Origin: Antedon mediterranea
Taxonomy: Eukaryota; Echinodermata; Crinoidea; Comatulida; Antedonidae
DNA length: 64,000 nt
NCBI RefSeq assembly: GCF_964355755.1
Contig: NC_092671.1
Location: forward strand, 37,031,304 to 37,095,303
Direction of reading: 5' to 3'
In this document: one piece after another, positions 1-27,360 of the stretch
Layout: the number at the start of each line of letters is the position of its first letter
Numbering within the stretch: position 1 is the stretch's first letter
Made by a program: the position numbers and the translations under genes
Notes under the pieces: generated by a model
What the model saw: only the letters and a program-made list of their open reading frames with translations
The model's database searches: none
What the model was told of the DNA's origin: nothing

Positions 1-1804
1 CAACGTTACAGACAAAGAATGTATGGAAAAACTCACCGCTGAAGACATTATGGTGATAATGAGCAGGATAATAGGAAATTATTCCAGTGAAACAAATCTT
101 TTTTGTTTAAGAAATTATACTACGAAGAATTCAAGTTCCTCAGTTGTTGATCTTGTGTACAACTATATCTACACTGCAATGCATGGAAATACTCATTACT
201 CGTGCTACATGATTTCAGAGAAACAACGTTGCAAAGCAGCTTTGTATAAATTTTACTGGAATGTACCTATTACTGTAATTGGCTTAGTGGTGATGTTATT
301 TAGTCCATTGGTAATTGGGGTGTTATTAGAGAACCCTTATCGTAAATCTTCAGATGACAATACGTGTCCACGAACCACAGAGGATGTAGCTCTTTTGGAA
401 ACAGACGATACTAAACAACCGCCAAGATTGGCTCTAAATTCTCCGTTACCTTTGGGTGCAAGGTACGCCATATTTCATTGGGGTAACAAACATGTATACC
501 TACTAAGCCTCCGGGTTTTCTGCATTTGCATGGTAATAATTGTTTTGATTCCTGTGGCTAAATATTTGGAAGTCCATTTTCATGTTAACTTTAAACGGCA
601 GAATGGTAACTATTTAAAAAAGTGTATTATTCTACAAAATGTTCTATCATCATGCCAGTTGTTAGCACTTCTGATCATCACAATTCACCCGGCATCGCTT
701 TCTTATTTCGACGATGGATCAGAATGTAGACTTGACTTCGACAGCAACCGATACACATGTCTTTATCGTCAGATATTGAATCGATTTAAACTGGTGACCA
801 GTTGGGAAGTTTGGCAAGATAGACCATTTATTGGTTTTACCTCACACATGCCAACGATATTTCGCAGAATGTTTTTGATCGTAGATGTTTTCATAGCTAT
901 ATGTCGCATATTAATGTTTCTATTTCCATTCCTTTATTTCATATCAGCACCAATAATATCTATCTTCAAGTCTCTCTTTCAATTTTTTAAATCACGAGGT
1001 CCGCCTTTCCGTATAAAGTCTCTTCCATTTTATATGGTATTGATTGTCATACGGTCCGCGTTGTTAACCATATTTGTTGCATCTCTCTCAATGCAAATGA
1101 TGACCATTGCAATTTCCATTATGCAGATGATTGTTCTGACCACTATAGGTATCGTGACGGAATATAACGATATCGTTGTAATACGAGTAATTACAATCCT
1201 CTCCTTTGGTTGGTACATTCTTAATGGCTTTAAAGAATACTACAACTGCTATGCTTCAGTTTGGCGTACCATAATTGATGCAGCAGAATCGTGGCAAGCC
1301 GGTTGTAACGAAGAAGCTTACAATGAGATTAACAACGACCCGAATTATCAAAGAGAAAATGTTCTTAAGGTTCGAAAATCTCCTAAATTAACAAAACCGC
1401 TTGTTGTTTATACAGAATTGATTCCATATTTACCAGAAGAGGTGTTGAATCACGTTATCAATAGATGCAAAAAGAAGAGTTTTCAGATTGCAAAAATGGT
1501 TTTGTGGAACGCCATTGTTGCCATCTTTTTGACAATCACATATTCAACGATCGTTTCAACTCATAAATTTACCGAATTCACACAAGTTACTAAATCGATG
1601 CTAACCTTGGCAATGGCACCTTTTCCAAAATTAGCATCAATTGCTTTCACCACACAAGAATATGCTTCGAGAAAAGAAGCCAAACAACGTCGAATTTGGT
1701 TTGAGGTGTTTAAGTACGCAGAGGAAAACGGATACAATAGAATTGGAGACGTTCAAGACGGTCTGCAATATGGCGAAGAAAATAATGACAGTGAGAGTAA
1801 CTAA
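1..1804 (+). CDS. Multi-pass membrane protein, copy 1 (5' truncated by window edge)
   Basis: This is an open frame of at least 600 codons. It is in frame from base 2, because the codons before the first ATG (base 23) match those at 9063-9085 of copy 2. The true start therefore lies outside the window, about 130 codons upstream by comparison with copy 3. The visible part holds the end of an N-glycosylated ectodomain, a first membrane helix near residues 90-112 of the open frame, a hydrophilic loop ending in the conserved segment LPLGARYAIFHWGN, and then about seven more hydrophobic segments. A Cys-containing loop (SNRYTCLYRQILNRFKLVT) separates two groups of helices. The C-terminal tail is charged (EYASRKEAKQRRIWFEVF). 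No intron is visible. I do not recognise the family, so function is unknown. Membrane location is inferred from hydrophobicity. Confidence 0.8.
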   Translation, partial: NVTDKECMEKLTAEDIMVIMSRIIGNYSSETNLFCLRNYTTKNSSSSVVDLVYNYIYTAMHGNTHYSCYMISEKQRCKAALYKFYWNVPITVIGLVVMLFSPLVIGVLLENPYRKSSDDNTCPRTTEDVALLETDDTKQPPRLALNSPLPLGARYAIFHWGNKHVYLLSLRVFCICMVIIVLIPVAKYLEVHFHVNFKRQNGNYLKKCIILQNVLSSCQLLALLIITIHPASLSYFDDGSECRLDFDSNRYTCLYRQILNRFKLVTSWEVWQDRPFIGFTSHMPTIFRRMFLIVDVFIAICRILMFLFPFLYFISAPIISIFKSLFQFFKSRGPPFRIKSLPFYMVLIVIRSALLTIFVASLSMQMMTIAISIMQMIVLTTIGIVTEYNDIVVIRVITILSFGWYILNGFKEYYNCYASVWRTIIDAAESWQAGCNEEAYNEINNDPNYQRENVLKVRKSPKLTKPLVVYTELIPYLPEEVLNHVINRCKKKSFQIAKMVLWNAIVAIFLTITYSTIVSTHKFTEFTQVTKSMLTLAMAPFPKLASIAFTTQEYASRKEAKQRRIWFEVFKYAEENGYNRIGDVQDGLQYGEENNDSESN

Positions 1805-2679
1805 CAGACAAATGTATTGATGCTATACAAAATTAATTTTACCAACTCTGAATGGAGAGAACTTGATCTACAAATCAGAACGTTACGTAACTTATACTCA
1901 GACAAATGTGTAGGGCCTATTATTTTATAGCAGTATGAAAAGCTTAAGTTTTAATGAATACTGATGAGGTAATTGAAAAGTGTGGCTTTACAATGTTTAT
2001 AATGTGTTAATGACTTCTTAGATGCTAACTTTGTAAATATAACAATAACTTAAAATCCAAAGGAAAATTACTGAAAAAATGGCAATGCTATGGTATCAGT
2101 GAATGGATCTCAATGGAGATACAAAATAAAATAAGCAAAAAGCTAAATCAAAACGAAAAAATAAAATAGCCAGAAAAATGTTAGCTTAACAAATAATTTG
2201 TCAATATTTATATATAATTGAAGCTATATAGTAGATTTACAAGTAATGTTTGCATAATAACAAGTAAATGCATGGTACCATAGCATTCCACATAAACTAC
2301 AATTTCATTAAAATTTTAAAAAGTCTATAGTATAAGTTTGATTTTCCATTTAATTCGGAAGAAGTTTCTCGCTCCTCTTTAATTTGCAAACACCTGTACA
2401 TATTTGAATAGTGGGCTACACGTGACGAAGTCAACTGGACTACTCAGACTGAGCCACCATGTAGGCCTAGGCGCAGCCGCAGAGGTGTAGAGTTTTATTA
2501 GATTTTGGTTGTTGGCACCTGTTGCTACCAGCAATGTGAGTAATAAATTATTATTATGTATATGGTGGACAATATATAATTCGGTAGGTAGTAACATATA
2601 CTGTATCAAACACCTGTCGCTCCGTTATTTAAAAGTACAGAACTATCGGCGACTGCTTTTTAAACATTTCCGTTCTACC
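1805..2679. repeat. Duplicated 3' flank of copy 1 (matches 12631-13595)
   Basis: The non-coding sequence after copy 1 is clearly homologous to that after copy 2. Shared stretches include the AGCAGTATGAAA region, the poly-A-rich block near 2040-2170, the line GACGAAGTCAACTGGACTAC and the segment TTCGGTAGGTAGTAACATAT. The duplication unit therefore included at least 0.85 kb of 3' flank. Similarity stops at about 2675, where the next inverted-repeat element begins. No gene is seen here. Confidence 0.75.
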
Positions 2680-3128
2680 GCCGGTGTAAGATTTAAATGT
2701 GTCCGGTGTTTGAAAGTGTCCACTGGACAATTTTCAGCATTGAATAGTGTAATACCAGCTGTTGAAAATGGCTGCAACCACCCGGGCAGCTTTCATCGAT
2801 AAAAAAGTAGGACCATCGACATCATATTAACCCCGTAAAAACTAGGGCACTGGACGGTCACCAACTCCCGTTAGGGTAATTATAATTCCTTAGAATACCA
2901 ACTTGAATCGCAAAATATCAAGTCGATTGAAATAAATATTACTATTATTATATCTGGAGACATATAGTCTAATCAAATTAAATTGTTTGTTTTTGATTGA
3001 GTATATACAACCTGTTGTCAATTTGAAGTAAATCTGACAACTTGAAAAAATATATAGCCTACCGGTACTGTATTATTATTTCTAGGGAATGAATATCACT
3101 AAATCATATAGGCATAGGGCCTACCTAT

Positions 3129-3222
3129 TTTCGTTCTCTCGAAATATTATTTCATTGGAATTCGAATTACTAATTCGCGAGAGAACGAAATAATTTCCCT
3201 CGAAATTATTTCGTTCTCTCGA
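3129..3222. repeat. Palindrome built on TTTCGTTCTCTCGA
   Basis: The motif TTCGTTCTCTCGA and its complement TCGCGAGAGAACGAAAT occur three times in alternating orientation within about 95 nt, giving a strong hairpin. More decayed TTGTTCTC-like copies continue to about 3340. It looks like a subterminal repeat of the surrounding composite. Confidence 0.5.
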
Positions 3223-3719
3223 TCATTCCTTGTCTCGAAGTAGTAATTCATTTTTTATATTGTTCAGTTCTTGAAATCTTATTTTGTTCTCCCTAAATAT
3301 ATTTGTTCCCTCAAAATATTTTTCAGTTCTCAAAATATTATTTTGTAATATTCATAATACTGTTACTAATTTAATAATATTAACTGATAACAAAAGTGCT
3401 TTAAACAAGTAAGTTCGTCATTGTTAAAGTGAGTTCTTTTTCATTATATTTTTTTTCACAGATGCCTGATTTTTGGTTTTATTTAATAAAACATTGAATT
3501 GATTAGTCACAATATTTTATTTGTTTCTAGAGATTTTACATTATTTATTTATTTATCTAAAATACATTTGAAAAATATTGTTGATGCATATTACCAAAAA
3601 ATATTTATTTTTTTATATTTTATATGGCAAAATAAACACCTTAATTGCGCATCAAAATTATTCGTTCACTCAAGGGTATTTCGTTTTTTTGTATTTTTCG
3701 AATAATCTCTAAAAAAAAA

Positions 3720-4030
3720 ACGTCCACCTCTCCTAAGGGACCACTTCTCATAATTCCGTAACGACCACCTTTCGCAAATTACCACCTCTATTGAGGTGGT
3801 CACTTACGGGAGGTGTAGTCGGTAAAAGAAGTGGTCGTCTACGAGCGGTGGTAGTTTATGAAAGCAGTCCGTTATGAGAGGTGGTTACCCCTTCAGGAGG
3901 TTGTCCATTGTGAGAAGCGGTCCATTAACAGAGGTAGTCCCTTTTAAATATTAAAGGTGGTCGCTAACAAAGGTGGTTGCTTACGATCAGAGTGCTAAGT
4001 TTTGAAAGCCGATCACTTACGAGAGGTGGA
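3720..4030. repeat. Degenerate GAGGTGGTC / GACCACCTC repeat block
   Basis: About ten decayed copies of a 25-35 nt unit built around GAGGTGGTC and its complement. Their orientation flips near 3790, giving a fold-back centre. The short motif resembles the GTCCCCTTAATAGAGGTGTC ends seen near 36820, 48800 and 59940, so all may derive from related inverted-repeat elements. Confidence 0.45.
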
Positions 4031-4140
4031 TAGACTGACGACAAGTAGAGAAATACATTTGCACATGATTTAGACATTTTTAATTCAACATTTATTAGTT
4101 TCTATCAATGGTATAACAATACAATAAAAAGAATGATAAT

Positions 4141-4528
4141 TTATAATGAGAAAATACAAAAAATACCATTAATAGAGGATCTTGCAAGAAGAGAATACTT
4201 GTCACGCAAGACCCATAAACAAAAGAAAAAAATACATTTGTATATAATTATTAAATAAAATAAAAAAAAGTCATGACAAAAACATTTTGAAGGTCTAGTT
4301 TGAGTACAATGATAACAAATTACTTTTAAGTTTTTTACGAAAAGTTGGGAGAGAGGAAGAGTTAACAATACTAGTATCTAATTGATTCCAAATTAAAGGG
4401 CCAGAAACATAAATAAAGTGAGAAGAACTAGTTAATCTTACAAAAGGAATAGTTAACTGAAACTTATGAACAGTACTTCTTAAATTATGACCATGGTTGA
4501 AATCAGCAGTGTTAAATAAATTCATCAT
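4141..4528 (-). mobile_element. Non-LTR retrotransposon (CR1/L2-like) 3' fragment
   Basis: On the minus strand, 4528-4295 encodes a 77-residue open frame with the typical C-terminal end of LINE reverse transcriptases: H-x-LRS near the start, then YVSGPLIWNQL and S-x-x-TFRKKLKSNLL. An A+T-rich 3' tail follows. It is truncated at 5' and is not a host gene. Family level (CR1/L2/Jockey-like) is a judgement from the Y-GP-x-x-WN-x-L motif. Confidence 0.6.
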
Positions 4529-4869
4529 GGGAGAAGGAAGATTGTTAGAAAAATATTGAAAGACAAAAGAGGCACTTTAGGTTTGTAAAATATATAATAT
4601 TTTATTAGCTGGCGATATTAACTACATTAGCTGTGAGGCAATTTTCGTTACTACATTACCTGTTGAGTTGTATATGAGTATAATGTTGATTTTTATTTGA
4701 TAAATAAGCTGTTGGTGTTTCTACATCATTAGCTAGTTCTAGGTTTTATTATATGGGTGGATTTGACTTTTCTACACTAGCAGTTTTGAACAGGGCCTAC
4801 TGTGTTTAAATGGAATGCTACAAGTTGTATTATTTTTTTTTATTTATCGTTTTGTGTACTAAAGTGGCA

Positions 4870-5095
4870 GCATAATCAGTATTTATTTTTACCAGATGTC
4901 CAACAAGGGTAATGTCCCAATTGGTAATTGCCACAATTGTCAGGTCAACCTCAAAACAGCGGCTCTCGGGACCGGGAGAGTTGTATGATTTGTTTTTATT
5001 ATTATTTTTTTTTTAATGCGCCTTGAGCACTCTGTGGTATGTGTGCTATAAAAATCCTGTTATTATTATTTGTTATTATTATTTCACCTTTTAGT
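4870..5095 (+). mobile_element. LINE/SINE 3' tail with (ATT)n end
   Basis: Contains GCGCCTTGAGCACTCTGTGG, then GTGCTATAAAAATCCTG and a (TTATTA)n run. This is the usual layout of a CR1/RTE-type 3' end ending in a microsatellite. No coding portion is recognisable. Confidence 0.4.
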
Positions 5096-5099
5096 CGTG

Positions 5100-7625
5100 T
5101 CTGTCTTAAAGTAAAGTGATCTTTAATTGGAAGAGGACCAGTACAATTACTTGTTTTTAATCACATGATTATAAACTATTTATTCCTCTTGTCTGTGCTC
5201 GTACAAAATAATAAAACGGTCGCTAATTGGAAGTGTATTAAAGTAAAGTGATCTTTAATTGGAAGAGGACCAGTACAATTACTTGTTTTTTATCACATGA
5301 TTATAAACTATTTATTCCTCTTGTCTGTACTCATACAAAATAATAAAACGGTCGCTAAATGGAAGTGTTTAAATTGAAGTGATCTTTAATTTGAAGAGGA
5401 CCAGTACAATTACTTGTTTTTTATCACATGATTATAAACTATTTCTTCTTCTTGTCTTTATTCATACAAAATAATATAACGGTCGCTAATTAGAGGTGTC
5501 TTAAAGTAAAGTGATCTTTAATTGGAAGCGGACCAGTACATTTACTTAATTTTGTCACATAATTAAACTATTAATTATTCTTACCTTTACTCATACCAAT
5601 TAATAAAAATGGTCGCTAATTAGAGGTGTCTTAAAGTAAAGTGATCTTTATTTGGAAGCGGACCAGTACAGTTACTTAATTTTGTCACATAATTAAAACT
5701 ATTAATTATTATTGTCTTTACTCATACCAATTAATATAATGGTCGCTAATTGGAGGTGTTTTAGGTAAAGTGATTTTTAATGGAAGAGGACCACTTCATT
5801 TACTTGTTTTTGTCATATACTTAACAATTATTTATTCTTTTTGTCTTTATTAATACTAAATAATATAATGGTCGCTAATTGGAGGTTTCTTTAAGTAAAG
5901 TGATCTATAACTGGAAGAGGACTAGTACAGTTACTTAATTTTGTCACTATCATAATTAAAACTATGTATTCTTCTTGTATTTAGTCCTACCAATTAATAA
6001 AATGGTCGCTAATTAGAGGTGTCTTAAAGTAAAGTGACCTTTAATTGGAAGCGGACCAGTACATTTACTTAATTTTGTCACATAATTAAACTATTAATTA
6101 TTCTTGCCTTTACTCATACCAATTAATAAAAATGGTCACTAATTAGAGGTGTCTTAAAGTAAAGTGATCTTTAATTGGAAGCGGACCAGTCAGTACAGTT
6201 ACTTAATTTTGTCACATAATTAAAACTATTAATTATTATTGTCTTTACTCATACCAATTAATAAAATGGTCGCTAATTGGAGGTGTTTTAAGTAAAGTGG
6301 TCCTTTATTGAAAGAGGGCCAGTACAATTACTTGTTTTTTGTCACATAATTAATAACTATATATTCTTCTTGCTTTATTAATACTAAATAATATAATGGT
6401 CGCTAATTGGAGGTTTCTTTAAGTAACGTGATCTATAACTGGAAGAGGACTAGTACAGTTATTTAATTTTGTCACTATCATAATTAAAACTATGTATTCT
6501 TCTTGTATTTACTTCTACCAATTAATAAAAATGGTCGCTAATTAGAGGTGTCTTAAAGTAAAGTGACCTTTAATTGGAAGCGGACCAGTACATTTACTTA
6601 ATTTTGTCACATAATTAAACTATTAATTATTCTTGCCTTTACTCATACCAATTAATAAAAATGGTCATTAATTTGAGGTGTCTTAAAGTAAAGTGATCTT
6701 TAATTGGAAGCGGACCAGTCAGTACAGTTACTTAATTTTGTCACATAATTAAAACTATTAATTATTATTGTCTTTACTCATACCAATTAATAAAATGGTC
6801 GCTAATTGGAGGTGTTTTAAGTAAAGTGGTCCTTTATTGAAAGAGGGCCAGTACAATTACTTGTTTTTTGTCACATAATTAATAACTATATATTCTTCTT
6901 GCTTTATTAATACTAAATAATATAATGGTCGCTAATTGGAGGTTTCTTTAAGTAACGTGATCTATAACTGGAAGAGGACTAGTACAGTTATTTAATTTTG
7001 TCACTATCATAATTAAAACTATGTATTCTTCTTGTATTTACTTCTACCAATTAATAAAAATGGTCGCTAATTAGAGGTGTCTTAAAGTAAAGTGACCTTT
7101 AATTGGAAGCGGACCAGTACATTTACTTAATTTTGTCACATAATTAAACTATCAATTATTCTTGCCTTTACTCATACCAATTAATAAAAATGGTCATTAA
7201 TTTGAGGTGTCTTAAAGTAAAGTGATCTTTAATTGGAAGCGGACCAGTCAGTACAGTTACTTAATTTTGTCACATAATTAAAACTATTAATTATTATTGT
7301 CTTTACTCATACCAATTAATAAAATGGTCGCTAATTGGAGGTGTTTTAAGTAAAGTGGTCCTTTATTGAAAGAGGTCCAGTACAATTACTTGTTTTTTGT
7401 CACATAATTAAAAACTATATATTCTTCTTGCTTTATTAATACTAAATAATATAATGGTCGCTAATTGGAGGTGTTTTAGGTAAAGTGATTTTTAATTGGA
7501 AGAGGAACACTTCATTTACTTGTTTTTGTCACATACTTAACAATTATTTATTCTTCTTGTCTTTTCACATACCATATAATATAATGGTCCCTAATTGGAG
7601 GTGTTTAGGCAAAGCGATCTTTAAT
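5100..7625. repeat. Satellite: ~130-bp monomers with 529-bp higher-order unit
   Basis: About 19 monomers of roughly 130 nt, each carrying GGTCGCTAATTGGAGGTGT, AAGTAAAGTGATCTTTAATT and GGACCAGTACA...TTTGTCACATAATTA. GGTCGCTAAT recurs at about 5218, 5350, 5481, 5611, 5741, 5870 and 6005. From about 6000 the array is ordered in blocks: AAAGTGACCT falls at 6031, 6560 and 7089, exactly 529 nt apart, so four monomers are amplified together. Monomers at the left edge are the most divergent. No reading frame is conserved. Confidence 0.9.
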
Positions 7626-8099
7626 TAGAAAAAAAAAATTTGTTTGGCATCATTAAGTATTATTGGTTATTAAAAGAAGACAAGACAAGTGCAGGCGTGA
7701 TAAAAACAACCACCTATCATAAAACGTATGATACAGTATTTAATAGTGGACGCATTTCAATCCATGGGTCAGACATTATTAAACGGGCCGGACAGCATTA
7801 AATTGTTGAAAAACGCCCACGAACCCGTTGAAACATGCAACTGGACACTATCCAATGCTGAAAAGTGTCCACCCGGACACTTTTGAATGCTGGACACAAT
7901 TCAATCTTACACCGGCCTCCGATTGGCGAAACAGTGTTATTTTATTTTACGAGCCACAAAAATATACGAAAGGTTTCCCAGAGTAGTTCCGGCCTCCAAA
8001 ACGGTAACCACAAACCCAGTAATCAGCGCACCTGGATAAATTTTAGTTTGGTACGCCTTTATAATTCACGAATGAAACGGTCACTTATTATTTGATATT

Positions 8100-8664
8100 G
8101 TTGAACTGTGTCCATTTTAACTTAAATGTTAAAGTTTTATGCAATATACAGCATGCTTATCTTGTAGCTATACCGGTATTGCTTTGTAATTTGTAATGGT
8201 TTTTCATATATCCGCAATAAAATATTATATATTATTATCTATATTAAATCAGTATCTGTAAAGCATTGGTATTTGTTTCTTCCAACCTTGTCTACTAAAC
8301 ATTCCGCTCTTCTCTCGGCTACTACACAAATCAAACGAGTGACCAATTAAACACAATTCAACAACAGACTATGACAAATTTCAAAGTAGTAAAAGAGTGA
8401 CAAAGTAAGCAAAAAAAAGCCGTTAACATTTTGATTTAGTAAATTTAAAATGACGTTACAACGGGGGAAATGTGTATAGGCATATAACACGGAAAGTGTA
8501 AACAAAAAGTTGTGGAATTGGGAATTCCAAGATATTCACAAATAGGTACCATATAGGAAGTAAACCTTGTTTTGGTATTATAAACACTCGTGATTTAAAT
8601 CTGGTTCTGTTCAGTTTGTTGTCTAGTTTTCAGACTTGCAGTATTGATTTTAAGAGTTATAGTT
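8100..8664 (+). promoter_or_regulatory. Upstream region of copy 2, related to that of copy 3
   Basis: Blocks such as TTGGGAATTCC, TCACAAATAG, CTCGTGATTT and TGTTCAG occur in the same order at 8517-8612 and at 16360-16470 upstream of copy 3, about the same distance before each ATG. This suggests a shared ancestral promoter/5' UTR. No TATA box stands out. Confidence 0.4.
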
Positions 8665-11600
8665 ATGGCGTCAAACTGGATTTGTTTTACCATGATGGTA
8701 GGTACGATTGTTCATGGAAACTATGTTATGCAGGATTTTTCAAAAACTCGACCTTACATTAAGGTGGTCAGTCCATGTTGGCCTATTTGGAGTCAAATAC
8801 AAAATACGACTGATTGTGATCTAATGCCGACAATATATAGGCCTACTGGTAATAACAGAACTATGAACATCAGCGAACTGGTTGACCGTTCTAGAAATGT
8901 TTCTGTTGTGAAATTTAACATACACAAAGGTTCAGAGTATGGTACACTTGCATGGGTTGACGACAAAGTAGGAGCAACTATAATGTCATATCCCGCCAAC
9001 TATGAAATTTTGTCGTTGGGAACATTGACATTTGAAGAGATCACATTGAATCTAAGATTTAACAACGTTACAGACAAAGAATGTAAGAAAAACCTCACTA
9101 ACGAAAACATTATGGTGATAATGAGCAGGGTAATAGGAAACTATACCAGTGAAACGGATCTTTTTTGTTTAAGAAATTATACTACGAAGAATTCAAGTAG
9201 GCCTACCTCAGTTGTTGATCTTTTGTACAACTATATCTACACTGCAATTCATGGAAACACTAATTACTCGTGTCACATGATTTCAGAGAGACACATTTGC
9301 AAGGTAGTTTTGCATAAATTTTACTGGACTGGACCCATTACTGCAATTGGCTTACTGGTGATGTTATTTAGTCCATTGGTAATTGGGGTGTTATTAGAGA
9401 ACCCTTATCGTAAATCTTCAGATGGCAATACGTGTCCAAGAACCACAGACGACATAGCTCTTTTGGAAACAGACAATACTGAACAACCGCCAAGATTGGC
9501 TCTGAATTCTCCGTTACCTTTGGGTGCAAGGTACGCCATATTTCATTGGGGTAACAGACATGTATACCTACTATCCCTCCGGGTTTTCTACATTTGCATG
9601 GTAATAATTGTTTTGATTCCTGTGGCTAAATATTTGGAAGTCCATTTTCATGCTAACTTTAAACGGCAGAATAAAGTAAATAAAATATTTAAAAAAGTGT
9701 ATTATTCTACAAAGTGTTCTATCATCACAGGCCCGTATGCAGCATTTATAATGGGGGGGTGCGAGCGAAGCGAGCAACAATGGCTGGGGGCCAGGGGGCC
9801 GCCAAGGGCCCCCGGTCAGGGTCCAGGGGCCGAAGGCCCTGGAAAAATTTGCGTTATTTGACGTTCTAAAGACTGATGTAAGACTCTCTGTTGTGGCTTG
9901 GGCTAGTTGAACGATGGACACCAGAACTTAACGCTTTCATGATGAGGCCAACTCAGCAGGGGTGGCGCCAGGATCTTCCCGACGCGGGGGCTACATTCCC
10001 CGACGAGGGGGCTATGCGAGCATCACTAGGCTGAGGGCCAGGGGCCGCCAAGGACCCCCGGTGGGGTCCAGGGGGCGAAGCCCCCGGAAGCAACGCGTAC
10101 TAGCGTCATTTGAGGTTTTTTTTAATCAGATTTAGGGTAGCCATTTTTTCCATTTTTTATAATGCATAAATAAAATACTGCGTGCAAAAAAACGATGCGC
10201 GATGACGGTTTCAATCCATATTTTTCAAGTTAAAAAATAAAAGTTCAAAGAAAATTTTGAAAAATAGAGTTGGAGGTCCTGGAAATTGGACTTATTTATA
10301 CTTCAAAACATGAAAAAAAATATATAAGTCCCTATCATGGGTTGTGACTGAGCTAAGAAATGTTTGAAAAATAGAGATGTTAGGTCCCGGAAAATGTACT
10401 TCTTGTTCTTCGAAATATGACCAGCTTTATTGTTGGGGCTGAGCTAAGAAAATGTTTAAAACTAGAGCTGCAGGTCTTCAAAAAATTGCATTTTATACTT
10501 TGGAAACATCAGGCCTAGAGGCTTAAAAAACGCAAGCGTAGACCTTTTTCAGTCGGGGAAAAAGTTTATTCCTCCCAGGTGTATGCATGCGTACCATCTG
10601 GACTTCCGAGTGGTGAGAAATTCATGACATACAGGATATTGAAAATGTAATAACTATAGCTATAATGTTGGCTAAGCGAAAATGGCATGTTTTTTTGTTT
10701 AGTAATGGATGAAAAATTTATTTTAGGTGCCCCACGGTACAGAAGGTTACTTGTAAATTAAAAAATTGGTGAACAAACGAACAATTAACATAATTCGTTT
10801 TTGCTGTAGTGTAGCGTACGTCGACGCAGTACACGACGTAACCGTCGGTAAACTTCGCCTGGAAAATAACACATTACACATTTTGGTCCCTGGATGAAAC
10901 TTGATATCACGCGTCTCGACCCAACGTTGAACGATTCGTACAAAGGGATACCGCCAGACAAGTGCGTACCTAGCTATTGTTTAGTAGTAAGTTAGATCGC
11001 TGGCAATAATGAATGCATATAAAGTGCATAATATCACTCTGACGTACTCTCACGGTGAATGAAACGTCGCGGTTTTCTAGGCGCTGAAGCTAGCTACGAA
11101 GTGAACGCGAACGCTTTTTACTGTATATTATATTCCCCGACAAAAAGTACACGTGTTCCCTGACGTTAAGTTGTCTGTATTTCTCCAGCAAACACTTTAC
11201 CGCGTACCGCGTACATGAAGCGCTAAGCTATTGCTTGTCGTCACATGATCGACTGCGCATGTTTTACATCGAGTTTGTAGTCAGTTCAGATTCCGTAATT
11301 TAATTACCGGTATTTTTTCATTTTATATTAGCATATTTTTGTTTGTATACCATTGATAATGTAAATTTTGTATATATATAATGATATTGTCTTTAGTTAA
11401 ACAAGACAAGAAAAAATACCAACCGAGGAAATAGTGGACCTTTTGGGACTTGGGGGGGTGCGTCTGCACCCAACGCACCCCCCCTGGATACGGGCCTGCA
11501 TCATGCCAGTTGTTAGCACTTCTGATCATCACAATTCATCCGGCGTCGCTTTCTTGTTTCGACGATGGATCAGAATGTGGACTTGACTTCGACAGCAACC

Positions 11601-12630
11601 GATACACATGTCTTTATCGTCAGATATTGAATCGATTTAAACTTGTGACCAATCGTACGATTTGGCGAGATAAACCATTTGTTGGTATTACCTCTAACAT
11701 GTCACTGATATTTCGCAGAATGTTTCTGATCGTAGATGTTTTCATTGCGGTGTGTCGTATAATAACGTGCCTATTTCCAGTTATTTACTTTCTCTCAGCA
11801 CCAATAATATCAATCTTCAAGATTCTGTTTAAAGTTGTTGGATTTGACAATCCACGAGAGCGACGTATACAGTTTGCTCCACTGTATTTATCATTGGTTG
11901 TCATACGGGCTGCTTTGTTGACCATATTTGTTGCATGTCTGTCATTACAAGTGATGACCATTACATTCTTCATTTTTCAAACGATTGTTCTGACCACTAT
12001 AGGTATCGTGACGGACTATGGCGATAACGAGATTATGGTAATACGAGTAATTACAATCCTCTCCTTTGGTTGGTACATTCTTACTGGCTTTAAAGAATAC
12101 TACAACTGCTATGCTTCAGTTTGGCGTACCATAATTGATGCAGCAGAATCGTGGCAAGCCGGTCTTAATGCAGAAGCTTACAATGAGATTAACAACGACC
12201 CGAATTCTCAAAGGCGAAATGCTCTTATGGTTCGAAATTCTCCTAAATTAACCAAACCGCTTGTTGTCTACACAGAATTGATTCCATCTTTACCAGAAGA
12301 GTTGTTGAATCACGTTATCAATAGATGCAAAAAAAAAAAAGTGTTCAGATTGCAAAAATTGTTTTGTGGAACGTCATTGTTGCCATCTTTTTTACAATCG
12401 CATATTTAACGATCGTTTCGACTCATCAGTATAACGAGTTCACACAAGTTAGTAAATCTATGATAACGTTAGCAATGGCGACATTTCCAAAATTGGCATC
12501 AATAGCTTTCACGACACATGAATATGCCTCAAGAAAAGAAGCCAAAATACGCAGAGTTTGGTTTGAGGTGTTTAAGTACGCAGAAGAAAAAGATTACAAC
12601 AGAATTGGAGACGTCCAAGGTTTGGAATAA
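8665..12630 (+). pseudogene. Multi-pass membrane protein, copy 2 (disrupted by transposon)
   Basis: This is the full-length homologue of copies 1 and 3. The start at 8665 (ATGGCGTCAAACTGG) is chosen because it aligns with copy 3's start; an upstream in-frame ATG exists at 8644. The first part (8665 to about 9670) encodes a signal peptide, an ectodomain with many N-x-S/T sites, and the first two membrane segments. Three lesions follow. A net 7-nt gain relative to copy 1 near 9670-9685 shifts the frame. A 1771-bp transposon with a CATCA duplication lies at 9728-11498. A longer A-run near 12330 shifts the frame again, so the last ~100 codons (12325-12630) read in a different phase. Each shift is independent of the insert, since insert plus duplication is a multiple of three. 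An expressed truncated N-terminal protein is still possible. Confidence 0.85.
9728..11498. mobile_element. Non-autonomous hAT-like element inserted in copy 2
   Basis: The termini are imperfect inverted repeats: 5' CAGGCCCGTATGCAGC and 3' complement CAGGCCCGTATCCAGG, followed inward by G-rich runs. It is flanked by a 5-bp direct repeat CATCA (9723-9727 and 11499-11503). Copy 1 preserves the empty site (…TCTATCATCATGCCAG…), which proves the insertion boundaries. CAGG…CCTG ends fit hAT elements; 5-bp duplications fit the hAT5-like group rather than classic 8-bp hATs. The interior has two related GC-rich blocks (about 9790-9840 and 10020-10090, CCAGGGGCCGCCAAGG-type). No transposase frame is visible. 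Confidence 0.85.
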
Positions 12631-13619
12631 TGGCGAAGACAAGTTGTGCGACCATACTCAAATATACAGGATTGATTAAAATTTAAATTCTGAATAGAGA
12701 GAACATGATCTGTATATACAAATCCGAAAACGTTACGTAACTTATACTAAAAAAAAATTGTATATATTTTATAGCAGTATGAAAGCTTAAGTTTTAATGA
12801 ATATTGTTTGAGATTTGTAAAGTGTTGCTTTACAATGTTTATAATGTGTTAATGACTTCTTAGGTGCTGATTTTGTAAATATAAGTTAAAATCCAAAGGA
12901 AAATTACTGAAAAAATGGCAATCTTAATAAAGATAGAAAATAAAATAAGAACAAAGCTAAATCAAAATGACAAAGTGAAACAGCCAGAAAAATGTTAGCT
13001 TAACAAATCATGTGTAAATATTTATATACGCCTATAATTGAAGCTATAGTAGGTTTATAACTAATGTTTGCATAACCAGTAAATGACACTATAGCATTCC
13101 ACATAAACTACAATTTAATTAAAAATAAAAAAGTTTAGTAATTGAATACTTTGTGTGATGTTAAGACATAAAATATGTAGGCTATTATAGGCCTATAGTT
13201 ACTGCGTGCAGCTTGCCATTAACATCTAAAGTTTAGAAGAATCTTAAGAATGAGAGAATTAATCAAACTTTAGTCAGTTTAATTCGGAAGAAGTTTCTCG
13301 CTCCTATTTGCATACACCTGTACATATTTGAATAGTGGGCTACACGTGACGAAGTCAACTGGACTACTCAGACTGAGCCACCATGTAGGCCTAGGCGCTG
13401 CAGCGGTGTAGAGATTTATTAGATTTTGGTTGTTCACATTGTACAATGTGAGTAATACATTATTATTATGTATATGATGGACAATATAATCTTAAATAAT
13501 TCGGTAGGTAGTAACATATATTGTATCAAATACCTGTCGCTCCGTTATTTAAAAGTACATAGTAGCTGTCGTTGGCGACTGCTTTTTTTAAATTTCCGTT
13601 CAAAGGTCATTATGATTAT
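12631..13619. repeat. Duplicated 3' flank of copy 2
   Basis: Homologous to 1805-2675 downstream of copy 1, with small indels, up to TTTCCGTTC at about 13600. No gene is seen. Confidence 0.75.
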
Positions 13620-15864
13620 TACCGGGCTGCGATTTTTTTTTTCGTACATAAGTTGGGGACCCCCTCATGAAACGTCACAAAATAAACATGAATAATTCAT
13701 CAGTTAAATTTGTTGTTCCGTGTGCACCCAAGCGTATAGCAACAAGAAGTGATTACACGCACAACTAAACTGCGATACGATTCTTTCTACAGTAGGCCTA
13801 GGATTCTAGGTCAATTCACGTGATTGCCTTCGCGCACTCTTCTTTAAATCTTCACACACACACCACTATGCAAAATGTGTCGAGGCTAATCGACAGCTAG
13901 GCAAGATATTAAACTAAGTACTGTAGTTAATTGGACATAGCCCAAAGAAAGCAGACCCACAAGAATAAAAAATGTATATAATTTGTGTACTGTATTTTTT
14001 TAATTCTGCTATTTTAATTATCAAACAATATGCATGTACTCAAAGGAATTTTAAAAATGCGCGTATATGAACACATGAGATGGGAAGATTTGACCCACGA
14101 GAATAAAAAATGTATTTTTGTGTAATGTTTATTGTTTAATTTTGCTGACTTATTACTCGGATTGTGTGGGTAGTAACAAAGTGCGAGGCAGCGAGGCACG
14201 CGAGGCAGGGAAGGCATGCGAGGCAAGTCAGAAATTTATGCGAGGCATCGTTTTACCATCATCAAAAAATGCGAGGCATCATTTTATCATTTCTCAAAAT
14301 TGCAAGGCAGGAAATCACCGAAATTGAAGTAGCCTAGGCCTAGGCCCGCTAGGCTAGTTTCCTTTTGCACCTGCCTTTTATTTTAACCAACTTTATCCTG
14401 AATACCACAGCTTAGAATTAGTAGGCCTACTTTAATGAAGAAAAATCACATAAAAGTAACAATAAATCCATTAAATTGGTGATTTTACAGACGTTGTTTT
14501 TCTCGCATTTCGCACACTCAATGTTCAATATTTTGGTTTCTATGGAACGCCAAAAGAGCAAAATTAATTAGAGGGCTAAAAACTCTGTGGAATCCATTTA
14601 TATTTAACGCATTATTTGGTGAAAATCAAGTACAATTTCAATAGATTTTGTCACTGTCAGTAAAGAATTTTTTTCTTTGCGGCATGTTATTGGATCGCCA
14701 TATCAGTTACCTTTTATTCACCGCCAGTTATTGAACTTGTCCTGACAATCGCTGTTCACCTTATTTGCGAGAGAGGTACACGTGTTGTTCCTAGAGAATG
14801 GAATGTCAAAAATGTCTTTGGCACGCCGCTCAGAGAGAAGTCTGTGCGTTGCTGCTGAAACCACGTGCTATAGGAGGGGAATGCACCTCAATCCTCTGAG
14901 CTGAGGGCTGAATCATTCCGCTACCTGCTAAATAGTAAAGAGGGATCTAGGCGCAGGGGTGTGATAAAATATTATTTTCACTCTGCTATGTTCGAGAGAC
15001 ATGTGAGTGAACACGCTCGAAATGCCAACAAACATTGCAGTCATTTGATGAGTGTGTCGCTATAACAATTATTGTTTATCGAAAGTTGAAGACTGTCGTT
15101 CAGATTTTTGAACCGTAGTTTGGGCACTTTTGTAAAAGTAAAATTTGACACGATATGACTTGAATGAAAAAACAATCGTTACATAAAAATAAACAACATG
15201 ATGAGCGTATACACGAATCTATTTAGATACGCTTGTATCGATTGATTATTAGGCCTATAATATAGCATAATAGCACGTTAAGATATGCCTCGTACCTTTT
15301 TGAAATTGTAAACTATATGCATCGCATGCCTCGCACTTTTGGAAATGATAAAATGATGCCTCGCACAAATATTTGGCATGCCTCGCGTGCCTCGCTGCCT
15401 CGCACTTTGTCAACACTCGGATTGTGTCATACCAAAGATAGTAAGTGTAACTATTTTTGGTCATACCTAACACACACACGTCACACACACCCACATAGCT
15501 ACTACTAGAATAGACATGGGTTTAGAGACTAATAATTAGACCTAATAGTATTAATAGAAACTATAGTTTTAACACGTAATTCTTTAGTAATAAATTATAT
15601 TAAAAACACCATAAACTAAAGGCTGATTATTTCGACAATCCACACAAAACGCCGCTATTCTTCTTCTATGAAATCGCACGCCGCAACAACAGCGGAGATA
15701 GGAGGCCTAGAATCGTACCGCACTTGTGTAATCACTTCTTGTTGCTATACGCTTGGGTGCACACGGAACAAGAAAATTTAACAGATGAATTATTCATGTT
15801 TATTTTGTGACGTTTCATGAGGGGGTACCCAACTTATGTACGAAAAAAAAATCGCTACCGGGCT
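13620..15864. mobile_element. Mutator-like foldback element with 9-bp target duplication
   Basis: The element proper is 13629-15855, flanked by the direct repeat TACCGGGCT (13620-13628 and 15856-15864). The ends start GCGATTTTTTTTTCG and continue as near-identical inverted arms of about 180 nt, including CGTACATAAGTTGGG, CATGAAACGTCACAAAATAA and CACCCAAGCGTATAGCAAC. A long inverted repeat plus a 9-bp duplication is the Mutator/MULE signature. No transposase is visible, so it would depend on an autonomous copy elsewhere. A second, nested foldback lies inside. Confidence 0.85.
14168..15414. mobile_element. Nested foldback element with GCGAGGCA-rich arms
   Basis: The inverted arms at about 14172-14320 and 15283-15412 share ACAAAGTGCGAGGCAGCGAG and repeated TGCGAGGCAT motifs. 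The 13-nt direct repeat ACTCGGATTGTGT flanks it on both sides (14155-14167 and 15415-15427), so a 9-nt or longer target duplication is likely. It sits wholly inside the larger Mutator-like element, so it is a later insertion. The core (14330-15280) has no recognisable protein. Confidence 0.75.
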
Positions 15865-16509
15865 GGCTTTGGATTGGTTGAAGCGGTTTAGGAAAGTCCC
15901 GAAAAATTTGTTAGGCCTAAATTAATGTAACGTAAAAATTGAAAAATTCCAAAACAGATTCGTTTGCTTTTGAAATGGTTTTCCCAATCATAAACATAGA
16001 ATTCTTATAGCCTAACATACCTATATTTAGACATATTGAGTGACTCACATCCAGGCTAGAATTTAGAGTATAGTGAACAGGAGGACATGATGCTAAACAC
16101 GTTGCTCCAGTACAACAGTAAGTCTCTGTAGGCCTACATCTTATTATTAAAGAAAAATAGAGTGCAAATAGTCCTGTTTTCTTTATGATTATTATTATTA
16201 TTATATGTCTCTACGCTTTTACAAGTCTGCTACACTTTAGTCATGTTCATAGTGTAGACAAAGACATTTCATTGAAAACGTTTGCTAAATTAAAAGTTTT
16301 AGGCTAAAGTGCAACATAGAAACACGGAAATAAATTTAAAAAAAAAGGTACATACCTGAGATTGGGAATTCCGAGACAGTCACAAATAGTAACAAGACGA
16401 GGAAGTTTATTATGCTCTGATCCGGGTTCTGATGGTAAAACGTCTCGTGATTTTGTGATTGTGTTCAGTATAATGCTTGATGGTTGATGTATGACAATCT
16501 TTTCACAAA
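15865..16509 (+). promoter_or_regulatory. Upstream region of copy 3
   Basis: Shares ordered short blocks (ATTGGGAATTCC, GTCACAAATAG, CTCGTGATTTT, TGTTCAGT) with the region before copy 2. An (ATT)n microsatellite lies at about 16188-16204. Nothing else is recognised. Confidence 0.35.
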
Positions 16510-18690
16510 ATGGCCTCAAAATGGATAAGTTTTACAATCTACCTGATGGTATGTACGACTGTGATTGGAAATAGCGATGTAATGATGCCGATTATTCCTC
16601 AAAATCCTTACATTGAGGTACTGCATGAGACGTGTTCTTGGATAACAATCATGAGTAATACAACTGATGCTGATCTTACACCAATAATAGTCAATGACAC
16701 CGATCACAAAATTATTAGCAGTGAACATCTGGTTGGGCGTGCCAAAGCGGAGCATTCGATTTCTGTTGTGAAATTTAAATCCGACTTATTTCCACCATTT
16801 ACCTGGGTTAACGACAAAGTAGGAGCAACTATCATGTCATATCCCGTCAACTATGAAATACTGTCTTTGGGAACATTGAAATTTGAAGAGATCACAGTGC
16901 GTTTGGAATTTAACATTACAGACGAATACAGACGCATATTATCTCCTAATGACATAATGGCGGTAATGAGTAAGCACATAATTCAAAATTACACAACTGA
17001 AAAAGATCTTATTTGCTTTCGTTCTACTCCAAATAATTCCAGCGCCTCATTCGGTCATCTTGCGTACAACTATATTTACAGTGCAATGCAGGGAACTGCT
17101 CATCATTCGTGCTTCAAGATTGCAGAGAAACAAAGTTGCAAGGCAGGTTTGAATAACTTTGTCTGGAATGGACCTATTACTGTATTTGGCTTGCTGGTGA
17201 TGTTATTTAGTCCATTGGCGATTGGAGTGTTATTACAGAATCCCCATCAAAGACCTTCAGATGACATTACGTGTACAAGAACCACAAAAGGAGACGCTCT
17301 TTTGGAAACAGACAATACCGAACAACCGCCAAGATTGGCTTTGAATTCTCCGTTACCGCTAGGTGCAAGGTACGCCATATTTCATTGGGGTAACAAACAT
17401 GTATACCTACTAAGCCTCCGGGTTTTCTGCATTTGCATGGTAATAATTGTTTTGATTCCGATAGCGCAGCTAAAAGTACTTTTTGATGCCAACTATACGT
17501 ATTTGTATCTTTTATCCTCGTATTACTTTGTACATTTAGTTGTAACAGCATGTCAGTTGTTAGCACTTCTGATTATCACAATTCACCCGGCATCGCTTTC
17601 TTGTTTCGACAATGGATCAGAATGTGGACTTGACTTCGACAGCAACCGATACACATGTCTTTATCGTCAGATATTGAATCGATTTAAACTTGTGACCAAT
17701 CGTAAAGTTTGGCAAGATAGACCATTTGTTGGAATTACCTCTAACATGATAACTCGCAGAATGTTTCTGGTCGTAGATGTTTTCGTTGCGGTGTGTCGTA
17801 TAATAACGTGCCTATTTCCTGTTCTTTTCTTCATCTCAGCACCAATAATATCTATCTTCAAGTCTCTCTTTAAATTTGTCAATTCACAAGATCGGCCTTT
17901 CCGTATACAGTTTCTTCCATTTTATATGGTAGGGCTTGTCATACGGTCATCTTTGTTGACCATATTTGTTGCAGCTCTCTCACTACAAATGATGACCATT
18001 GCAATTTTCATTATGCAGATCATTGTTCTGACCACTATAGGTATCGTGACGGACTATGGCGAGAACGAGATCGTTGTAATACGAGTGATTACAATCCTCT
18101 CCTTTGGTTGGTACATTCTTAATGGCTTTAAAGAATACTACAACTGCTATGCTTCAGTTTGGCGTACCATAATTGATGCAGCAGAATCGTGGCAAGCCGG
18201 TGGTAACGCAGAAGCTTACAATGAGATTAGCAACGACCCGAATTATCAAAGAGAAAATGCTCTTAAAGTTCGAAAATCTCCTGAATTACCAAAACCGCTT
18301 GTTGTCTACACAGAATTGATTCCATCTTTACCAGAAGAGCTGTTGAATCACGTTATCAATAGATGCAAAAAGAAGAGTGTTCAGGTGGCAAAAATTGTTT
18401 TGTGGAATGCCATTGTTGCCCTATTTTTTATAATCGCCTATTCCACGATTGTTTCAACTCATGAATATAACGAGTTCACACAAGTTACTAAATCTACATT
18501 AACATTGGCTACGGCTGCCTTTCCAAAGTTAGTATCAATGGCTTTCACGACACAAGAATACGCTTCAAGAAAAGAAGCCAAACAACGTCGTATTTGGTTT
18601 GAGGTGTTCAATTACGCAGAGGAAAACGGATACAATAGAATTGGAGACGTTCAGAACAGTTTGGTCGTCGGGGATAACGGCGACGACTAG
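16510..18690 (+). CDS. Multi-pass membrane protein, copy 3 (intact, 726 aa)
   Basis: A single uninterrupted exon. Residues 1-20 look like a signal peptide (hydrophobic SFTIYLMVCTTVIG). Residues 21-220 form an ectodomain with N-x-S/T sites (NTT, NDT, NIT, NYT, NSS) and several Cys. About eight to nine hydrophobic helices follow, near 222-244, 300-320, 333-358, 418-445, 466-490, 492-515, 521-542, 625-650 and possibly 660-680. Conserved landmarks are LPLGARYAIFHWGN (282-295), a Cys loop with SNRYTCLYRQILNRF (378-392), GFKEYYNCYASVWRTIIDAA (539-558) and a basic tail EYASRKEAKQRRIW (683-696). Compared with copy 1, residues 320-345 differ strongly. I do not recognise the family. Secretory-pathway membrane location is inferred; a receptor or channel-like role is possible but unsupported. 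Confidence 0.85.
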   Translation: MASKWISFTIYLMVCTTVIGNSDVMMPIIPQNPYIEVLHETCSWITIMSNTTDADLTPIIVNDTDHKIISSEHLVGRAKAEHSISVVKFKSDLFPPFTWVNDKVGATIMSYPVNYEILSLGTLKFEEITVRLEFNITDEYRRILSPNDIMAVMSKHIIQNYTTEKDLICFRSTPNNSSASFGHLAYNYIYSAMQGTAHHSCFKIAEKQSCKAGLNNFVWNGPITVFGLLVMLFSPLAIGVLLQNPHQRPSDDITCTRTTKGDALLETDNTEQPPRLALNSPLPLGARYAIFHWGNKHVYLLSLRVFCICMVIIVLIPIAQLKVLFDANYTYLYLLSSYYFVHLVVTACQLLALLIITIHPASLSCFDNGSECGLDFDSNRYTCLYRQILNRFKLVTNRKVWQDRPFVGITSNMITRRMFLVVDVFVAVCRIITCLFPVLFFISAPIISIFKSLFKFVNSQDRPFRIQFLPFYMVGLVIRSSLLTIFVAALSLQMMTIAIFIMQIIVLTTIGIVTDYGENEIVVIRVITILSFGWYILNGFKEYYNCYASVWRTIIDAAESWQAGGNAEAYNEISNDPNYQRENALKVRKSPELPKPLVVYTELIPSLPEELLNHVINRCKKKSVQVAKIVLWNAIVALFFIIAYSTIVSTHEYNEFTQVTKSTLTLATAAFPKLVSMAFTTQEYASRKEAKQRRIWFEVFNYAEENGYNRIGDVQNSLVVGDNGDD

Positions 18691-20970: not shown

Positions 20971-22874
20971 TTACCAAGTTAATACTACAGATTTGTCAGA
21001 AAGGTGTTTCCCATTTGGTGTTCCTGAATTCTCAGGCAACAATGCACAATATACTGGTGTTATGGCGCCCTCATCTGGGGTTTTAGTTCCTTTGTGACTT
21101 GACATGTCAGTATCAACATAACCTGGGCAACACTGCAAAATGAAATCAAAGAAATCATCAATTACAGTATTTTAATTATCCATCTTAAATTAATAAAATA
21201 TATGAATTTGTGAAATAGTTTTGATAAAATTTAATAACAGTTACCACTGTATGTACATTCAGGCCAGGCAAAGATTTTAAGCTCTGTCTACACTATCAAA
21301 CTTTAAGTGACAAAAAAAATGTGATGTTCCCATATATGGACATGATGATGTCATATCACTACCATATTTGGGCACACCACACTTATTTTTTATAGTGTAG
21401 ACAGAGCTTTACTTACACAGTTGATAAGAATATCCTGTTTTGAGGTGTCTGCACTCATGGCTGCAGCCTGGATCCTTGTTATGGTGATAACTGCTGCCTT
21501 TGAGGTACCATAGGCACTTTCTACCCATCCATCTTCTTTTATTGTCCCCTTTTCTGCACTCCTGTCATATAAATCATGTTTAATGTAAATACCAGTAATC
21601 CAACAGAAACATGCTTAAACTTGCGATTTTGAATCTATGCAATTACAAGTATTTATACTAACGCAACAAAGTCAGCCATCAGCTTATTGACATCTTCTTC
21701 TGTTTTTGCCTGTTTGAAGGCTTGCTGAAGTTTGGGACTCAACTTCTTGTACACCATTGGTCCGACTAAACTTGCCAAATGGCAAACCCTAAAATGAAAA
21801 CAAAAGTTAAGTACATTGCAGACAAGAAAGAAAAAACCTATGCGAAAGAAAACATAATGAAAGCCTTCAGTACCTTCCATGCGAACGTATCAATGGGAAC
21901 AGAGCGTGACAAACATTTAATGTTGCAGTGTAGTTGGTTGCTATGGATACCTTGGCTTGTACACTAAATGGAGCTGTGTCTGTTTGCTGAAATATAAGTA
22001 AAAATACATTTTTTTTTAAATTGCAAATACGTATCATGTAAAGTTTGGTTCTCGGAATGAAATGGGAGATGGTTGTATCCCGAGATAAAAATATTGTACC
22101 TTATACGCAATTGCAGCATTATTAACAAGTATATCTAGGCCCCCATGAGTGGATTTAAGAAAATCTCTCAAACGGTCAATGCTCTCTGATGAATCAATGT
22201 CCAGCTGATGAAAGTGAGGGTTCAGTCCTTCCTTCTTAAGTTCTTCTACAGCAGCTTTCCCTCGTTCTTCATTCCGTGATGTCAAATAAACGATACCATT
22301 CTGAAGTTCTTTGCAAAGAGCCCTCACAATGGCAAAACCAATACCTTTATTTCCCCCAGTCACCTAATAAAAGAAACCAATATTTTAGTGGATTTTGATG
22401 GATGATTTTAACCGGCATTTTCATATACCTGTACTGCAGTAGTATCGTATGTTTTGCAAGATTTATAATCAATATTTGTCAATAGTCTATAGATACTGTA
22501 GTACAAATAATAATTAATAGATATTTCCTACATCGACGTATGAAAACCTGCGGTTTTATATTCATATACGTGCATTAATTAACTTTTGTGAGATCCGGAC
22601 CTTTCAATAAATACAAAACAGGCGGCCTCTGGAATATCTGATCTGATTATACAATATAATATTAATAACCTGTTGGCCCTGGCCTGCTGCCCCTCCCTCC
22701 CGCCGGCCCTGTCTAGGCTAGCCTACTAAGTACTAGGTAGGGCCTAGGCCTAGCTAGGCCTACTAGTACTAGGCTAGGCACCTTTAATTTATCTAGGTAG
22801 GCCTAGGCCTAGGCTAGAATAGAAGCAAATTCACTATTGATTATGATACTCACCACTGCAATTTTTTGTGACAT
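20971..22874 (-). CDS. CBR1: Carbonyl reductase 1-like SDR, copy A (six exons, 276 aa)
   Basis: Exons on the minus strand: 22874-22854, 22363-22100, 21986-21874, 21788-21663, 21561-21417 and 21132-20971. All have GT/AG borders and matching phases (831 nt including stop). The product is a cytosolic NADPH-dependent carbonyl reductase of the short-chain dehydrogenase fold. It shows the cofactor motif TGGNKGIG (residues 9-16), LDIDSSES, NNAA (N-N-A in place of the common NNAG), a retained catalytic Ser in HLAS, the YGTSK catalytic Tyr/Lys pair, and CCPGYVDTDM after it. Length matches the human CBR1 family (277 aa). Intron 1 is rich in AGGCCTAGGCC repeats. Intron 5 carries a MITE starting about 7 nt after the exon 5 donor. 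Substrates cannot be told from sequence. Confidence 0.93.
21279..21409. mobile_element. MITE family A copy in CBR copy A intron 5
   Basis: Inverted ends AGCTCTGTCTACACTATC / GATAGTGTAGACAGAGCT with an inner CATATATGGACATGATGATG and CCATATTTGGGCACA. Flanks read TAA on both sides. The equivalent insertion is present in copies B and C, so it predates the gene triplication. Confidence 0.9.
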
Positions 22875-23279
22875 GATTTGTTATAATTAATGGTTCGGTT
22901 CTAGGCCTATTCGTTGTCTACGACGAGTACAGCAAGGAAGTGAGTACTCTTTATATCAATTTCACGGGTTCATGATCTTGTTTGTTTACGACCGAGATGA
23001 CTTTGCAATTTTTTTACGCACGTACGTCCACGTGTCCATAATTTTCTGTTTGCTATCAACACGGCGACCGTGACTTTGCTTAATTTAATCAATCTATCAA
23101 TAAGTCCGACCCGATAAGCCTTTTTTTTTTTCAATTTGTATCTATTTATGACATTGTGTCTTATATGTTGTATGCTCAATTGACACAGTAAGTTTAACTT
23201 TTGCACAGAAGAAATGTTTGCAATAAACACTAGCCTACTACTTAGGCCTGGGCCTACAGCTAGTTCACTTCAAATCAGG

Positions 23280-23303
23280 ACCCCCCCCCCCCCACCCCCT
23301 GCT
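23280..23303. repeat. Poly(C) tract
   Basis: A run of about 15 C interrupted once by A, then CCCC. A simple repeat; its length may be unreliable in an assembly. Confidence 0.8.
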
Positions 23304-23496
23304 TTGGTTAAGCCGATTTTCTTTTTCAGGGAGTAGGCCTAATCAACATACACGAACAATTATCAATCATCTACACAATAATTACAGATATGCCTTTTAT
23401 ATTCTTAGTGAATTTAGTTTTAATTTATAATAGTTTTAATTGTTAATTAATTAATCATAGTACGTCATTACATTATTTCTAATAAACATATACCGT

Positions 23497-24374
23497 AAAA
23501 CCTCGAAAAGAAGCCCATGGGCTTCTTCATTTTTTTAGTGCTCTTGGGTGGGCTTCTTTTCGAGATGGGCTTCTTTTCGAGATGGGCTTCTTTTCGAGAG
23601 TACGTTTGCAAGCTGTAGAGGGGGGCTTCTTTTCGAAATGAATGCTGTAAATTTTGTGAATTTCTACTACAATAATATGACTTTTTATCTAGAATTAAAG
23701 GACACCATGTTTTTCAGTACAATTACGAAATAAACGAAGAAATGATATGTAAATTGGAACCTGAAAACATGAAAAGTCTAGCCAGAAATGCAATCAAGGT
23801 ATGTTCGTTGAATGGTATAGATGTTGGACATGTTCCTGAATGTTTGGCTCAGAAAATAGCTCCGTTGATGAAAGATAGGACACTAGTGCAGCTTAAAGCC
23901 AAGATAACTGGAATGGAACAAACGGCCCCAGAAGGAAAATGGGTACTTGGTGGAGGTGTGGAAATTCCCTGCCGATTTTACATATAATTGCCAACGAAGA
24001 AGACAAGAAAAAGATATATGCGATCAAAGCACCATTTGAACGACAATAATAAACACGATCATACATATTCTTTATTATCATCAGTCTGCATCACAAGTAT
24101 CTGGCATTAAATTATCCTACTACAGTAACTCTTAATCACGTGTTTGTAATGTTTATTTCTGTTCCTTTGACGTTCAGTTAATAAAGCTACATTCTTAATA
24201 CAGTATAGTAGTCTATCTCGAAAAGAATTAAGTCCATACTATCTTGAAAAGAAGCCCAGGAGGCTTCATTTCGAGATTCTTTTCGAGAGTACTTTTGCAA
24301 ACTGTAGAGGGGGGCTTCTTTTCGAGATGGGCTTCTTTTCGAGGTTTAAGCCCATGGGCTTCTTTTCGAGGTTT
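23497..24374. mobile_element. 0.88 kb element with AAACCTCGAAAAGAAGCCC ends carrying an ORF remnant
   Basis: The left end (23497) reads AAACCTCGAAAAGAAGCCCA and the right end (24374) is its complement. Between them are repeated GGGCTTCTTTTCGAGA motifs and two direct copies of a block with TGTAGAGGGGGGCTTCTTTT (about 23615 and 24305). The core holds the unidentified frame at 23716-24050. The superfamily is unknown. Confidence 0.6.
23716..24050 (+). pseudogene. Unidentified frame inside the CTTCTTTTCGAG element
   Basis: From a splice-acceptor-like TTTTTCAG a frame reads YNYEINEEMICKLEPENM, then LARNAIKVCSLNGIDVGHVP and LAQKIAPLMKD. It stops at 23987, but a +1 frame continues with HIIANEEDKKKIYAIKAPF to about 24048. 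This suggests a coding segment with a late frameshift. The residue pattern is protein-like (regular hydrophobic spacing), but I do not recognise it. It may be a captured host exon or a decayed element protein. The isolated ATG frame is 23742-23987 (81 aa). Confidence 0.35.
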
Positions 24375-25115: not shown

Positions 25116-25326
25116 TCATCAGTTTCTTCCATGTGTAATATCTCCTTTTTTAAAATATTTTTTTAACTTTTTAACTTTTGTTGTAAATTTTGATGTTTGA
25201 AAGCTTGTACCAATTTTATATGTAAATCTCTCGCAATTCAGTTTTATTTTATATATACTGCAAAGAGAAATATTGAATAAAAGCAGAATGAATGAATGTA
25301 TGTACATTCAGGCAGACAAAAATGTT

Positions 25327-27267: not shown

Positions 27268-27360
27268 GCTCTTCCTAAGTAAGCGGCATGACGCGGGTAA
27301 ATAGTTCAATATTCACTAGTATATGTAAACGGTACTCACCACGGCAATTTTTTGTGACAT

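Follow-up and report, generated by a model that had tools for sequence, protein, structure and literature searches.

A family of intronless genes for multi-pass membrane proteins was found in the host genome (354 Mb, 18 contigs), and three of its members follow one another in tandem at the left end of the window, the stretch of 64,000 bases analysed here (C2:37031304-37095303). As far as sequence comparison can tell, the family is unknown to Pfam, to NCBIfam (gene 3) and to the proteins of the PDB. It may encode cell-surface receptors or receptor-channels which sense ligands and which evolve by birth and death. This reading is tentative, and we put its chances somewhat short of even. What was observed directly is the structure of the genes, their number, homology and decay, the pattern of selection and the conserved residues; topology, surface location, sensing and signalling we infer. 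As a kind of family we rate it as expanding and receptor-like, not as categorically new.

The original prediction, made from the letters of the window, had described three intronless tandem genes, each encoding a protein of about 726 aa. The lack of introns and the tandem arrangement were borne out by unbroken coding frames and clustered loci. The rest of the description applies to two of the genes. Gene 3 is a single unbroken ORF of 726 codons, and gene 1, whose ATG lies 395 bases upstream of the window, is intact with 732 aa; the two proteins are 72% identical. Gene 2, however, is a pseudogene disrupted by an insertion and by frameshifts (Table 1). In the membrane core the comparison of gene 1 with gene 3 gave a dN/dS of 0.46 (Fisher p 1e-6; like all dN/dS values below, a pairwise Nei-Gojobori count within one genome). 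This purifying selection supports the view that genes 1 and 3 are real coding genes.

Table 1. Members of the family in the window and the parts of gene 3 (positions are those of the window).
Feature	Position	Strand	Basis or details
Gene 1, 3' 600 codons, intronless	1..1804	+	open frame from C2:37030909 to window 1804
Gene 2 pseudogene; ORF pieces 8665-9861, 11504-12409, third frame from ~12328	8665..12630	+	three frames, transposable element, frameshifts
1771-base element with terminal inverted repeats, inside gene 2	9728..11498		ends CAGGCCCGTAT...ATACGGGCCTG
Gene 3, intact intronless 726-aa multi-pass membrane protein	16510..18690	+	ORF
Gene 3 residues 1-20: putative signal peptide	16510..16569	+	hydropathy
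Gene 3 residues 21-218: ectodomain	16570..17163	+	hydropathy, alignment
Gene 3 residues 219-726: membrane core with nine to ten hydrophobic helices	17164..18687	+	hydropathy

The frame of gene 2 that runs from 8665 enters unrelated sequence after position 9727. It might be thought that the gap is an intron, but this is ruled out by the transposon ends, the target-site duplication and the many copies in the genome. A duplication of the 5 bases CATCA flanks the inserted element (9723-9727 and 11499-11503), and a search of the host genome revealed at least 39 further copies, 94-100% identical and most of them with identical ends. Because so many near-identical copies share the same start and stop, the sequence evidence identifies it as a recently mobile DNA element. 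It is probably non-autonomous, since the ORF listing contains no long ORF within it. The 5-base duplications and the ends starting with CAG presumably mark a resemblance to some hAT-like elements. The insertion is not the only lesion in gene 2. A separate frameshift lies upstream of it: the frames before and after the insertion disagree even when 1776 bases (insertion plus duplication) are subtracted. Direct reading of the sequence showed another frameshift at a poly-A run near 12330. Between genes 1 and 2 lies a satellite array (window 5102-7630) in which a 130-base unit is repeated about 19 times, with a higher-order period of 264 bases.

Iterated protein searches of the host genome recovered at least 22 loci on four contigs (C1, C2, C3 and C9) together with relics, about 25 in total. 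Twelve loci have intact long ORFs (~700-990 aa), 10 are broken and about four are relics. Nearly half of the family is thus broken, with the proviso that, at some of these loci, the frameshifts could stem from the assembly. The coding regions of all 12 intact copies are free of introns. Two subfamilies can be distinguished. Subfamily A is located on C1 (3.82-3.89 Mb, four loci, one of them intact) and on C2, in the window and at its left edge (two intact, one dead), and its intact frames are gene 1, gene 3 and L008. Subfamily B is located on C3 (35.40-35.57 and 36.26-36.32 Mb) and on C9 (8.30, 19.16 and 19.60 Mb, with relics at 8.24 and 8.46), and its intact frames are L011, L014, L015, L016, L017, L018, L019, L033 and L034. 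Members of A and B are only ~17-28% identical. Their profiles aligned over 552 columns (hhalign probability 99, E 7e-18), and at the level of sequence profiles the two subfamilies are homologous along most of their length. A maximum-likelihood tree separated A from B with a support of 100/100; L033 and L034 are long-branched and their placement in it is unsure. The subfamily B cluster on C3 is adjoined (35.54-35.67 Mb) by part of the matches to the GT29 sialyltransferase family (PF00777), which has at least 150 exon matches on many contigs and in many clusters and has apparently undergone a large expansion of its own.

Copies derived from retrogenes, kept transiently and without any role in the organism, might be expected to look much the same, given that all copies are intronless and nearly half are broken. 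We nevertheless regard such a non-functional expansion as very improbable. The 12 long intact ORFs speak against it, as does significant purifying selection, which acts on opposite domains in A and B. Moreover, the divergence between A and B is deep, yet cysteines and motifs have been conserved across it.

The proteins share a characteristic architecture. A hydrophobic N-terminus of about 20 residues forms a putative signal peptide, as had been proposed, and the predicted ectodomain of ~200 residues was likewise recovered, with five putative N-glycosylation sequons in gene 3 ahead of the first membrane helix (residues 50, 62, 135, 160 and 175). C169 and C201 of this ectodomain are invariant in all 13 aligned family members. 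Hydropathy placed hydrophobic segments of gene 3 at residues ~224-242, 298-316, 338-356, 432-450, 468-486, 492-510, 522-540 and 629-647, and a weaker one near 660-680. The segment at 432-450 sits in an apolar stretch of 39 residues, in which subfamily B has two segments. Downstream of the signal peptide this makes nine to ten segments in all, a number that fits either nine or ten crossings with the C-terminus on either side of the membrane, so the topology given here is a predicted one. The original prediction had counted eight or nine hydrophobic helices. Besides the two cysteines, F89, W99, G105, S119, G285, G294, N295, R304, Y381, W401, P437, G511, Y535, Y547 and P596 (gene 3 numbering) are common to all 13 sequences. 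Conserved positions of gene 3 lie between helices 1 and 2 (P283, G285, G294, N295, R304) and around helices 6-7 (G511, Y535, Y543-544, Y547). In several members of subfamily B a long loop of low complexity precedes the last two helices.

Searches for known relatives agreed with the claim that the proteins match no described receptor, channel or transporter family. No Pfam or PDB sequence match exceeded the cut-off or chance for any member or profile tested, and the same was true of NCBIfam for gene 3. No relative was found in viral and prokaryotic collections. Word searches of the open-licence literature, in which words cannot match a sequence, returned no description of the family. The top sub-threshold Pfam scores were those of Pho86 (15.9-16.4 bits, cut-off 29.3) and, for L033, of Herpes_LMP1 (19.3 bits, cut-off 26). 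Pho86 (PF11124) was dismissed as a chance hit: at E 0.009 its 15.9 bits stayed below the cut-off and covered only a stretch of 73 residues (595-667), and no tested member of subfamily B had it. Comparable unannotated sequences may exist in other invertebrates, such as cnidarians, molluscs and amphioxus.

The family might belong to a known superfamily, STRA6-like or some other one with nine to eleven helices, as a branch so divergent that profiles do not reach it; in that case the superfamily would indicate its function. The input comprised no more than 4 to 13 sequences, all from a single genome, and profile searches at such depth miss remote relatives. Fold models, which might have revealed such a relationship, failed: for the whole 726-aa protein, modelled from the four window sequences, AlphaFold gave a pLDDT of 34.5 and a pTM of 0.22, and for the ectodomain alone it gave a weak model (pLDDT 42.7). 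With the latter, Foldseek hit scattered unrelated proteins (best E 0.096, none below 0.001) and VIA-align reached a best Z of 3.5 (none at or above 5). The low confidence of the models is most likely due to too few sequences. Against a divergent branch, no Pfam cut-off was reached in any member tested, and the STRA6-family exons of the host lie elsewhere (see below). We think this explanation unlikely, though it deserves to be taken seriously. If it were correct, a large unannotated set would gain a name.

Two families come close in architecture. STRA6, the RBP receptor (PF14752), has its N-terminus outside, about nine membrane helices and a length similar to that of the present proteins. It differs in that PF14752 matched no family member tested; the host has STRA6-family exons elsewhere (C6:22.88-22.90 Mb), and the search of the host genome with PF14752 did not include the present loci among the matches listed. 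TM9SF proteins (EMP70) have a signal peptide, a luminal domain of ~200-250 residues and nine helices, a plan close to that predicted for the present family. Unlike it, they are conserved endomembrane proteins whose genes do not form expanding tandem arrays, and the EMP70 profile gave no match up to E 10 in the members tested, nor did these have any other Pfam match above cut-off. Rhodopsin-class GPCRs have seven helices and an N-terminus outside; hydropathy placed nine to ten segments in the present proteins. In the members tested the 7tm_1 profile gave no match up to E 10 either.

It had also been suggested that the ectodomain changes fast. In the window genes this is the case, with a dN/dS of 0.71-0.75 between the ectodomains of genes 1 and 3 (0.91 in the N-terminal part) as against the lower value of the core. 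Part of the contrast may have another origin. Synonymous divergence between the two genes falls from ~0.8 at the 5' end to ~0.03 around helices 6-7, and this drop points to gene conversion, which would have homogenised the core. As a consequence, part of the "fast ectodomain" would simply be an old, unconverted segment. In subfamily B, on the other hand, the pattern is reversed. Among four closely related copies the ectodomain showed a dN/dS of 0.27-0.38, clearly below 1 in all six pairs, whereas TM4-TM7 gave values of 0.68-1.2, none of which could be clearly distinguished from 1 by bootstrap. In none of the regions compared in A and B was dN/dS significantly above 1, the highest pairwise count being the 1.2 of TM4-TM7 in B. 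Relaxed constraint would fit these values.

These data bear on the possibility that the proteins are transporters, scramblases or constitutive channels. Copies would then differ in substrate or tissue, and the ectodomain would serve assembly or stability instead of recognition. A core of nine to ten helices in which glycines, prolines and tyrosines are conserved is what such a protein might have, and in subfamily B the ectodomain is indeed the most constrained part. However, the membrane core of B changes fast, which would be unusual for a conserved transport path, and no transporter or channel profile or PDB sequence matched above chance. We consider a transport function unlikely, to much the same degree as a remote branch of a known superfamily, but a serious rival.

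The preferred reading, that of a ligand-sensing receptor or receptor-channel, draws on the resemblance to chemoreceptor families, which repeatedly show tandem clustering, a lack of introns and numerous pseudogenes (PMC11526382). The vertebrate ORs, V1Rs, T2Rs and TAARs are intronless, clustered in tandem, rich in pseudogenes and subject to birth and death (PMC11526382), and the present family shows the same pattern with its 12 intact and 10 broken loci. Clusters, missing introns and dead copies, taken together with a putative glycosylated ectodomain, fit a receptor. Profile and sequence searches detected no similarity in sequence between these chemoreceptors and the family. They have seven helices, and most of them lack the cleaved signal peptide and the ectodomain of 200 residues that are predicted here. 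Other observations count against a receptor: no dN/dS was significantly above 1, about 25 copies are modest for a sensory repertoire, the variable region differs between A and B, and enzymes and transporters, too, can form tandem families of intronless and decaying genes.

If the proteins are receptors, a possible mechanism would be as follows. The N-terminus would be outside, and a glycosylated ectodomain of ~200 residues with conserved cysteines would sit atop a membrane core made up of nine to ten helices. On the cytoplasmic side this core would have conserved stretches linking helix 1 to 2 and helix 3 to 4, and the loop ahead of its last two helices would be variable and of low complexity. 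Cues from outside might be bound by the ectodomain, by the helix bundle or by both, and the conserved core would carry the signal across the membrane. An intronless gene would give rise to new copies by duplicating in tandem, and gene conversion would partly homogenise them; divergence would fall in the cue-reading part, and copies would often die. It is conceivable, but slightly less likely than any of the readings above except a non-functional expansion, that the family represents an undescribed animal superfamily of receptors or receptor-channels with an ectodomain fold and core of its own, one branch of which diversified the ectodomain and the sister branch the membrane bundle. Should the receptor reading be true, it would add an unannotated family of animal surface receptors absent from Pfam and, by sequence, from solved structures, and its catalogued copies, intact and dead, and its conserved residues would be at hand for experiments. 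That A and B vary in opposite parts of the protein would then provide a way to ask where recognition happens.

The remainder of the window contains several further features; the dehydrogenases and the carrier among them were named from sequence. Three tandem genes for short-chain dehydrogenases of the carbonyl-reductase type, with introns and a repeated exon VTGGNKGIGFAIVRALCKELQNGIVYLTSRN, occupy 21656-29843 on the minus strand. They are followed by exons of a mitochondrial carrier resembling SLC25A44 (33901-38021, plus strand) and by a fragment of a cysteine-rich EGF-repeat-like gene (43602-44424, minus strand). A tandem array at 59995-60705 comprises 9.5 copies of a 75-base unit with 96% matches. 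Finally, the palindrome TAGGCCTA is overrepresented in the window, with 38 occurrences observed versus about 1 expected at equal base frequencies.
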